From: Pirellulales bacterium
GTDB lineage: Bacteria > Planctomycetota > Planctomycetia > Pirellulales > JAICIG01
DNA length: 64,000 nt
Assembly (NCBI GenBank): GCA_025927475.1
Contig: JAICLL010000010.1
Location: forward strand, 1-64,000
Direction: 5' to 3'
Both the position numbers and the translations under genes were made by a program. This document shows positions 16,262 to 19,900 of the stretch, one piece after another. The number at the start of each line of letters is the position of its first letter. Positions within the stretch are counted from its first letter, which is position 1. The notes under the pieces were generated by a model. That model made no database searches. It saw nothing but the letters and a program-made list of their open reading frames with translations, and was not told the origin of the DNA.

Positions 16262-16449
16262 GAGTTTCCCTACCCTTTGCCTGGTACGGCGGTTACGAAC
16301 GGAATAAATTCCGTCCTACGTAAAAAAAGACGCGACTGCCCGATGCGCCGTTACCAGACTCATGCCGGTTGGCCCAAGACTCATGCCGGTTGGCCCAGAC
16401 TTATGTGGGTCGGCAGAGTGTTGCTCGATCGTGAAGCATCATCGGTGAA

Positions 16450-16487: not shown

Positions 16488-16590
16488 CCGTCACAACCTT
16501 TGGTCATTGTCCGCCTTGAACAAGGCCGCCCGAGAAAGTACCTAGAGTAAAACGAGGCGTCAAGAGCAGTTTTTGGGTTTATGGCTCTTC

Positions 16591-16926
16591 CGCAGAATCT
16601 GTGGATAGCTTTCGCACTGGTTCGCAGCGCGACCCTGCGTTTTCTGAGGGATGGCCGGGCAAATAAATGAGGTGCTGACTGACGAGTAAAGAACCCTGGC
16701 CCGCTATAGCGGGCCAGGGCCAAGCGAGTCATTTACCCGGAGCGGACCTGGCTATCCCTTGTCAGGTTGCTCGCCAGCAGAGCCCGACTCCGTTTCACCT
16801 ATCCGCCGATCATTCTACCACGAGTTATTGATGTTCAAATCGCCGCGCCATTTATTTGCCCGGCCAATGCCTGAAAAAAACGCATCCCGGCGCGGTTATA
16901 CGCCGGAATCACCCACAGATTCTGCG
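16591..16926. repeat. Inverted-repeat element (about 79-nt arms, central perfect 26-nt palindrome)
   Basis: Arm ends CGCAGAATCTGTGG (16591-16604) and TGGCCGGGCAAATAAATG (16652-16669) recur as exact reverse complements at 16913-16926 and 16849-16866; centre CCCTGGCCCGCTATAGCGGGCCAGGG at 16694-16719. Confidence 0.8.
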
Positions 16927-16956
16927 CAGGAGCCGGGTTTTTTGTAGCCGGGTGCT

Positions 16957-19900
16957 TTACGTCTCCGAAGGCGCCGGCTCCGCCTCGCGATGCACGCCAA
17001 TCTGGTCAACGCCGTCGCCGTCCCAGTCGCCCACGACGGGCCGATGGTCGGCGTCGCCTAAGTTATGGTGCTGGTCGTGCTCGTCGAGGGCGCCATCGTG
17101 GTTGATGTCGATGTGCCACTGGCCGTCGCGATAAACGCCCAGTTCGTCGACGCCGTCGCCATCGAAATCGCCCACCACCGGACGGTCGCCCTTTTGCCCC
17201 ATGCGCAGCGAAATGTCGTGCGGGCCGCGCTTGCCGTCGCCGTCGACATCGAGAATCCAATGGCCGTCGTGGAAGACGCCGATCGAGTCGACGCCGGTGC
17301 CCGTCCAGTCGCCGGTGACCGGAATATCGTCGAACGTGCCGAAGTGAAACACGTGGTCGATCAGGTCTGCTCGCAAAGCGCCGCCGCGGGTGCGCTTCAT
17401 CTGGCGATAGCCGTGGGTGGCTTCGGTCGGTTCGGGCGGCAGGTTCTTATGGCCGGCGGCGGCATTGCCCGGCTCGGGCAGTCCCGGTTCCTTCTGCACC
17501 GCCCGTGGATCGCCGGCCCAGGCAGGACCATAAATGCCGATGTCGGTCTTGCCGTCGCCGTCCCAATCGCCGGTCACCGGCTTGTCGTCGCGGTTGCCTA
17601 GCCGCGCCCACAGATCGCCTTCGTCCCAGATGCCGTTGCCGTTCAGGTCGATGAACCACTCGCCATCTTTGAACACGCCCACGTCGGTCAGGCCGTCGCC
17701 ATCGAAGTCGCCGGTGACAGGCGTGCCGCCCAGTTTGCCGAAGACCAGCTTGCGGGCCTCCTCGGCCTGGGGATGCTGCGGATGCAAGGTCCACAGACCA
17801 TCACGCATGCGGGCGTTGTACCAGGCGGCCACGTCTGCCCGCATGCGAACCGTTTGCATGGCGCCGCCGAGTGCCGCTCGGTCGCCGCGGGCCATGCCGG
17901 CATCGATTACGCTCAGGTGCCAGGTGATGCCCGACACCGGAGAGCTGCCGAAGATGTACGGCGAGACGGCGGGCGAGGCCACCGGCTGGGCGATGGCAGG
18001 CGGCGTCGCCGGCAACACCGGCGCATTGGCGGCGAGCTGCGTGGGCGGATTGGGCGTCTCGGGGTTGGGAACCGGCGGTGTCGGCTGCGCCAGCAGAATC
18101 TCGCTGAAGTTGTTGTTGAGCGACGCGGCGCCGTTGCTGACCGGGATGCGCACAATTGCGTCGTGGTCGGCGCCGATGGACTGCACCAACGCATCGGAGG
18201 CCGAAACGCCGGCGCTCGGCACGCCGGCTTGAATCAACGTGGGACTGATCGCCAGACCGCCCAGCGTGCCGGCCTGGTCAATGCCGTCGATGTATCCATC
18301 GGGATGCACCTTGAGCACCGAATACAGCCCCGGCGGCAAGCCGCTGAACTGGTAAAAGCCATTGGCGTCGGTGGTCGTTTCGATGCGGTTGCCCGACCGA
18401 TCGAGCAGCGGCATACCGGTGGCGTCGGCCAGCAGCAGCGTGACGCCGGGCACCGGTGGATCACCGGGCACGCGCACGCCGTCGCGCAGGCTCGGCAGAT
18501 TGGCCAGAATGCCCGGTAGGTCTTGCGTGGGGTTGGCGGTGGTAATCGGCGGGCCATCGACAAACACAAACCCCGAGATGGTGCTGGGCGGCACCAGGCA
18601 GAAATTGTAACCGACGCCGATGACGCCGCTGTCGAGGTCGATGCCGGTGGTCTGGCCCTCGCCGGTGATCTGTCCGCCGGCGCTGCCCACGTGCTGGTCG
18701 CTATAAAAATATCCGGCGGGCGTGATTTCGCGCACGCCGTAGATGCCCGGATGCATGCCGCTGAACACGTATTGCCCGGCGGCGTCCGTCAGGGTGCTGC
18801 CGATGACGGTGTTGCCCGCGCCGAGCAATTGAATGGTCACGCCGGCCAGCGGCGGGTCGCTGGGCGTTGTCTCACAATCGCCATAGATTTCGAGCTTGAC
18901 GAAGCCGGCGATGCTGACGGGCAGGGCCTCGCAAAAATCGTAGCCCGTGGCGGCGGCGCCCGAACCCAGCGTGGCACCGGTGACATCGTTGAGACTGGCG
19001 ATGGCGCCGCCCGCCGTGCCCACATGCGCGTCGTCGTCAAAGTATCCGGCGGGCGTGATTTTGTGGACGCTATAGACGCCTGGCATCAAACCGCTAAAGG
19101 TATACACGCCGTTGGCGTCGGTCACCGCGGTGGCGATGACGTTGTCCGATGCGTCCCGCAGTTGCACCGTCACGCCTTGCAGCGGCGGAGCGTTGGGGTT
19201 CACATCGCAGTCGCCGTTGACGTCCACGTGTACGACGCCGCTGAGGCTGGCGGGCAAGCCCTCGCAAAAATCGTAGTTGAGGCCCTCGACGCCTGAAGTC
19301 AGCACCACGTTGCCGAGCGTCGAGACATCGACCATCGTTCCGCCGGCGCTGCCCACGTGGTTATCCGCGGCGAAGTAACCGGCGGGCGTTACGACATGCA
19401 CGCCGTAGGTGGCGGGCGGAAGCCCCGCGAAGTCATATTCACCCTGGGCATTGGTCGAGGTGGTTTTCAGCACCGCGCCATTGGCGTCGAGCAACTGCAC
19501 CGTGACGCCCGCAATCGGTGTGGCATTCGGATCGGTCTGGCAGTCGCCGTTCACGTCGGTGCGCACATGCCCGCTGATGCCGACGGGCAGGGCTTCGCAA
19601 AAGTCGTAGTCCAGTCCGTGGACGCCCGAAGTCAGCACCACGTTGCCGAGCGTCGAGATATCGACCATCGTTCCGCCGGCGCTGCCCACATGGTCGTCGG
19701 CGGCGAAATACCCGGCGGGCGTTACGACATGCACGCCGTAGGTGCTCGGCGGAAGTCCTTGAAAGGTGTATTCGCCGTTGGCGTCGGTGGACGTAGTCTT
19801 CAGCACGGTGCCATTCGCGTCGAGCAACTGCACCGTGACGCCGGCGATCGGCGTGGCATTCGGATCGGTCTGGCAGTCGCCGTTCACGTCGGTGCGCACA

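Follow-up and report, generated by a model that had tools for sequence, protein, structure and literature searches.

What is the inverted-repeat element that lies between csrA and the gene for a giant surface protein in the first 64,000 nucleotides of contig JAICLL010000010.1 (the window) of a Pirellulales bacterium (assembly GCA_025927475.1)? The initial annotation, from which, together with the sequence, the identity of csrA is taken, left three possibilities: a miniature inverted-repeat transposable element (MITE), a paired structured RNA, or a recombination or phage attachment (att) site. Evidence for the last was absent. The first two are probably both part of the answer, as the element inserted here is best read as a transposase-less ISL3-type element carrying a promoter, structured RNA and terminator unit on its minus strand. 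The RNA recurs with at least five unrelated kinds of mobile elements in many bacterial phyla.

Structure and ISL3-type ends of the element

A repeat search of the window gave the element a length of 352 bp (Table 1). The inverted repeat of about 336 bp first described was thus real, with its true ends 8 bp further out on each side, and its arms are indeed inverted copies, of 87 and 86 nt rather than about 79 nt. The outer arms form terminal inverted repeats (22 nt, 91% match), while the inner arms match perfectly over 18 nt (16652-16669 and 16849-16866), and GGCCGGGCAAATAAATG has exactly two occurrences in the window, each within an arm. The same search recovered the perfect 26-nt palindrome noticed earlier, and the middles of the arms are diverged, as had been reported, every arm forming its own hairpin in that stretch. 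The element is palindromic because a subterminal motif is duplicated in inverted orientation. Compared with dinucleotide shuffles, its folding reached z = -11.5 on the plus strand and z = -9.8 on the minus strand, and its repeat structure is far from chance. Inspection of the open reading frames (ORFs) within 16583-16934 showed no convincing coding sequence, in line with the initial annotation, and no transposase. Directly outside the ends, 8-bp direct repeats match at seven of eight positions, providing the target-site duplication that had been proposed as a check; ISL3 elements generate 8-bp duplications.

Copies of the element were searched at the DNA level in its own genome (G000) and in 57 relatives. 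Over 22-24 nt, the element ends differed at 0-3 positions from a common consensus that also fits the ends of ISL3 elements with a PF01610 transposase, and in two relatives (G024 and G036) this end sequence is found next to ISL3 transposase genes (PF01610, E about 1e-72), the transposase with matching ends that the initial annotation had advised looking for. The own genome contains a single ISL3 transposase fragment, located at a contig end and terminating in such an end sequence. Because its ends match the ISL3 insertion sequences of relatives, the element is, as judged from those ends, a non-autonomous ISL3-type (MITE-like) element; the near-perfect duplication and the lack of a transposase also agree with the MITE suggested initially.

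No other full copy was found in the own genome by this search, only partial ones, matching the outer end (C55:192-241 and C86:2772-2796), the inner arm (C65:7362-7397) or the centre (C306, C155 and C24). The arms are therefore not unique in the genome; uniqueness had been named as an outcome that would speak against the element. One relative (G064, loci L113-L136) has about 30 stretches that match the inner-arm motif, largely in complete palindromic elements with different ends (GGTTCATCCGAC). Some of these MITE relatives have exact 8-bp target duplications (CAAATGAA twice, CGATATTG twice) and some carry the structured RNA, which makes them well suited to analyses of empty sites and copy number. 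A MITE alone would be ordinary.

A conserved structured RNA on the minus strand

Conservation across genomes was highest in a stretch of the interior (16744-16803) and not in the arms. The minus strand of this interior, from about 16805 to 16688, is a putative small structured-RNA gene. Across the family, the order on the minus strand is near-universal: a TAnnnT box resembling a -10 element, a spacer of about 7 nt, a three-helix domain with the consensus CCGG-TGAARCGGA-P2-CTC-P3-A-P2'-AAGGRATAN-CCGG, and a GC-rich hairpin, followed by a T-run in most planctomycete copies. The structured RNA suggested initially is thus present as the minus-strand interior and not as the pair of arms, and the palindrome is its predicted intrinsic-terminator hairpin. 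A terminator (hairpin plus T-run) was found on the RNA strand of 55 of 92 loci, among them 29 of the 34 that were treated as Pirellulales, compared with 14 on the opposite strand and 3 after shuffling, and the family terminators clustered mostly at 118-138 nt.

Covariation supported the domain. A starting alignment of nine sequences, made without structure, showed 94.8% pairing and 17 double changes. Among 35 aligned copies, 95.6% of cells paired and 105 were double-changed, compared with a mean of 30.7 after shuffling and at most 19 when partners were slid; the counts of this larger alignment lean towards the model to which it was fitted, and the nine-sequence alignment agrees. In the internal loop, the variable purine and the base opposite it swap together (A-G in 61 copies, G-A in 25, two exceptions; 86/88), and pairing between the base that precedes the loop and its partner is kept in 71 of 80 copies. 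G-U pairs outnumbered A-C pairs (78 vs 42, or 72 vs 19 without one weakly paired position), which indicates that the structure is used on the minus strand of the window. Overall, the pattern of substitutions points clearly to structural selection on one strand.

A covariance model of the three-helix domain (R1) was used for genome searches. It found five copies in the own genome and had matches in 40 of the 196 genomes searched from the order and in 25 of 296 from the phylum. In a collection of named genomes, an initial pattern search, for which about 15 chance matches were expected by our own estimate, led to about 70 loci, all counted only when confirmed by R1. These include records of Acidobacteriota, Lentisphaerota, Verrucomicrobiota, Desulfobulbus (desulfobacteria), Hydrogenedentes, Bacteroidota, Calditrichota and Nitrospinota; many loci are contigs of metagenome-assembled genomes (MAGs), and single taxonomic assignments may be wrong. 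Further copies lie on one acidobacterial and one Bacteroidota plasmid. Downstream of one copy in the own genome (L083, G000:C24), an inverted repeat, GCCCGGATTATTCATCAGCCCA...CGAAGCGCAAGCGAGG, apparently represents another dispersed repeat.

Association with unrelated mobile elements

A transposase-type gene was present within 1.5 kb of 63 of 103 distinct copies but in only one of 64 windows located 1.5-4.8 kb away. The RNA was masked in this count, as its antisense translation inflates an unmasked one, and the transposase probes were picked from the near windows, which makes the contrast somewhat favourable. The families near RNA copies were rve-type (28), IS110 (10), IS21 (8), ExeA-like AAA (8), ISL3 (7) and DUF1670 (2); Pfam identity was checked for IS21, ISL3, IS110 and the AAA protein, while the rve-type and DUF1670 labels come from reading the sequences. 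In some IS21 elements the RNA lies between istA and istB. It is convergent in IS21, IS3 and IS110 elements (with the 3' ends of the IS3 and IS110 genes), divergent from ISL3 transposase genes, and co-directional with the other rve, ExeA and DUF1670 genes, directly after them. In complete ISL3 elements, it is enclosed by the terminal repeats, at a distance of 184-208 bp from one end and with the transposase on its other side; the corresponding distance in the window element is 214 bp.

Some single loci are worth recording. A Bacteroidota MAG (L200) has two divergent RNA copies 250 bp apart, each beside an IS3-type transposase gene. On the 9.5-kb Bacteroidota plasmid NZ_CP120686.1, the RNA copy (L286:3979-4057) has repL on one side and a small ORF preceding parA on the other. 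The reading frame opposite to the RNA is uninterrupted in L054, L058, L060, L067, L062, L068 and L177, where it would add a GYPSPGCSSAEPDSVSP-like tail to the transposase.

Features of the window copy

The features of the element are listed in Table 1. The P1 helix of this copy is partly mismatched, i.e. partly decayed. Concerning P4, folding of the isolated stretch pairs part of it, and its layout is equal in other copies. Both arms also contain inward-pointing terminator-like hairpins (16884-16909, minus strand; 16623-16639, plus strand) and both scored as inward terminators in a generic scan; the right-arm hairpin may now terminate the surface-protein gene, which ends at 16957. As a candidate general insulation device, inward-facing terminators were assessed on 77 element ends: hairpins abut the conserved T-run at 48 of them, compared with 39.8 expected from shuffles. 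In the interval between csrA and the element (16356-16417), a 21-nt unit, AGACTCATGCCGGTTGGCCCA, occurs in tandem as two exact copies and one diverged copy.

Table 1. Position, strand and basis of the features assigned to the element and its flanks (window coordinates).
Feature	Position	Strand	Basis
Whole element, ISL3-type non-autonomous/MITE-like (as judged from its ends)	16583..16934		Repeats, own-genome and relatives' copies, ISL3 ends
Left flanking 8-bp direct repeat GGGTTTAT	16575..16582		7/8 match to 16935-16942; ISL3-like duplication
Right flanking 8-bp direct repeat GGGTTTTT	16935..16942		Read from sequence
Terminal inverted repeat GGCTCTTCCGCAGAATCTGTGG, nearest the RNA 3' side	16583..16604	+	Matches ISL3 ends L034, L039, L041, L193, L055
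Terminal inverted repeat GGCTCCTGCGCAGAATCTGTGG	16913..16934	-	Repeat search; ISL3 end comparison
Inward-facing subterminal motif TGCGTTTTCTGAGGGATGGCCGGGCAAATAAATG, diverged TTTTnnAGGCAT member, downstream of the RNA	16636..16669	+	Motif comparison
Inverted copy of the TGCGTTTTCTGAGGGATGGCCGGGCAAATAAATG-type subterminal motif, upstream of the RNA	16849..16884	-	Repeat search, motif comparison
Putative small structured-RNA gene, ~118 nt, predicted start and end	16688..16805	-	Family comparison
Three-helix domain: P1, internal loop GAAACGGA/AAGGGATA, P2, P3	16744..16803	-	Model R1, 74.5 bits; covariation
P2 (16783-16788/16761-16766) and P3 (16776-16779/16768-16771)	within 16744..16803	-	Model R1
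Predicted extended -10 box TGg-TAGAAT	16812..16817	-	TAnnnT conserved family-wide at that position
-35-like TTTGAA, 16-nt spacer to the -10 box	16834-16839	-	Read from sequence
Predicted terminator hairpin of the RNA (26-nt palindrome)	16694..16719	-	Followed by TTCTTT (16693-16688) on the minus strand
P4: pairing of CATTTACCCGG (16730-16740) and CCGGGCAAATAAATG (16655-16669), enclosing the terminator hairpin	16655..16740	-	Read from sequence

Proposed role and alternative explanations

In the simplest view, the element would be a derivative of an ISL3 insertion sequence formed by internal deletion and inverted duplication of one end. Its RNA unit is an orphan in the window. The RNA would be transcribed and, in intact elements, would regulate the element. 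As it adjoins the transposase gene, is antisense or divergent to it in most families and is bounded by terminators, its likeliest role would be to damp transposase transcription, whether by antisense action, collision, insulation or a host factor acting on the conserved internal loop. Control of the element's own expression by the RNA is the favoured role, held at slightly under even odds; a host-factor role is rather unlikely, and DNA-level or other roles would take what probability remains. It is about as likely as not that the family is a shared accessory of unrelated transposons (ISL3, IS21, IS110, rve-type and ExeA-type), repeatedly acquired for one general task such as host-factor recruitment or insulation of transposase transcription.

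Several observations weigh against an RNA-bearing, MITE-like ISL3 element. The full element is single-copy in its own genome, where a MITE would be multi-copy, and the flanking duplication contains one mismatch (GGGTTTAT/GGGTTTTT). The generic scan of the window listed neither a consensus promoter nor the palindrome as a terminator, so both are assigned here from the family, and the T-run after the palindrome is modest. Moreover, no transposase was recognised within 1.5 kb of 40 of the 103 copies, the plasmid copy near repL being one of them, and families differ in how the RNA is oriented to the transposase, which disfavours a single simple antisense mechanism.

These points give room to other explanations. 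The conserved unit might have no function as RNA and act as DNA, being a cruciform or subterminal site recognised by transposases or some other recombinase. The structures are palindromic, and the motif TTTTnnAGGCAT, also contained in the inner arms of the window element, points towards the RNA on one flank or on both in 75 of 108 loci and is the wrong way round in one, as expected of a DNA end signal. Such a DNA role is improbable, however, as the excess of G-U over A-C polarises the structure to one strand, the -10 box and terminator are conserved on that same strand, and the unit is common to unrelated transposase families. The copies without a transposase and an aptamer-like internal loop would also suit a host regulatory RNA or riboswitch that is independent of mobile elements and only accidentally near them. 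The near/far contrast in transposase association, the patchy, multi-copy distribution across phyla, the position within terminal repeats and the absence of a conserved downstream gene on the same strand, as would be expected of a riboswitch, make it a very unlikely one.

Two more specific proposals have still smaller probability. The adjacent csrA and the two conserved GGA motifs of the internal loop (ACGGA and AGGGA, both fitting ANGGA) bring to mind an RNA sponge for CsrA; yet the A-G to G-A exchange in the loop yields GCGGA in about a quarter of the copies, destroying ANGGA, and the context of the other copies is transposases, leaving little chance for this idea. The conserved stretch could otherwise encode a transposase tail (GYPSPGCSSAEPDSVSP) on the other strand, since IS21 and several rve elements keep the antisense frame open through the domain. 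Compensatory changes, P2 insertions of a single base (C155, L155) and the absence of an open frame from ISL3/MITE copies, that of the window among them, make coding the least probable of all. A minus-strand RNA carried by a transposase-less ISL3-type element is therefore retained as the preferred explanation.

Comparison with known RNAs and transposons

Rfam 15 was searched with the window, with 11 planctomycete loci and with 16 diverse loci, and no family matched, not even when thresholds were relaxed (up to E = 5 for the 16 diverse loci). An att site, a repetitive extragenic palindromic (REP) sequence and a group II intron were considered and found unsupported, including by these lax searches. 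A bridge RNA of IS110 was considered on account of a copy in G036 that starts just past an IS110 transposase ORF, and was ruled out by the other transposase families. A survey from 2010 reported candidate structured RNAs from soil bacteria or near transposases that have no Rfam accession, named Solibacter-1, Soil-1 and transposase-resistance (PMC2864571). The present family may be identical with one of them.

In the searchable literature, no description was found of this RNA family or of its sharing among unrelated transposons, and both appear to be undescribed. That one RNA domain recurs, in many phyla, at the ends of insertion sequences with unrelated mechanisms points to a general, apparently unnamed need of such elements. 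As the RNA is compact, easily transcribed and mutated, and present in many sequenced bacteria, the question is directly testable. It is also of use for annotation, as it accounts for a group of puzzling intergenic inverted repeats of planctomycetes.

With ISL3 insertion sequences and MITEs, the window element shares the GGCTCTTCCGCAGAATCTGTGG-type terminal repeat, the 8-bp target duplication and, in relatives, the PF01610 transposase. It differs from ISL3 insertion sequences in lacking a transposase, in that both its ends would derive from the RNA-side end, and in carrying a structured-RNA gene, which to our knowledge is not on record for ISL3. The bridge RNA of IS110 and the seekRNA of IS1111 are likewise structured non-coding RNAs beside IS110 transposases, as are some copies here, whereas the present RNA is also found with ISL3, IS21, rve and ExeA-type elements and is thus not an IS110-specific guide. 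The omega RNAs of IscB and TnpB (HEARO and IS605-orfB motifs) are also transposon-associated structured RNAs of many phyla, but their Rfam models gave no match and no IscB or TnpB was seen among the neighbours. RNA-OUT of IS10 and other antisense small RNAs borne by insertion sequences are small, have their own promoter and lie near the end of the element, often opposite the transposase gene. The present RNA resembles RNA-OUT as a small, stable-looking RNA with its own predicted promoter near the end of an insertion sequence. As far as we know, RNA-OUT, bridge RNA and omega RNA are each tied to one transposase type. In contrast to RNA-OUT and its like, whose known cases are each specific to one insertion sequence, the RNA described here has a conserved three-helix domain and spans unrelated transposon families and phyla.
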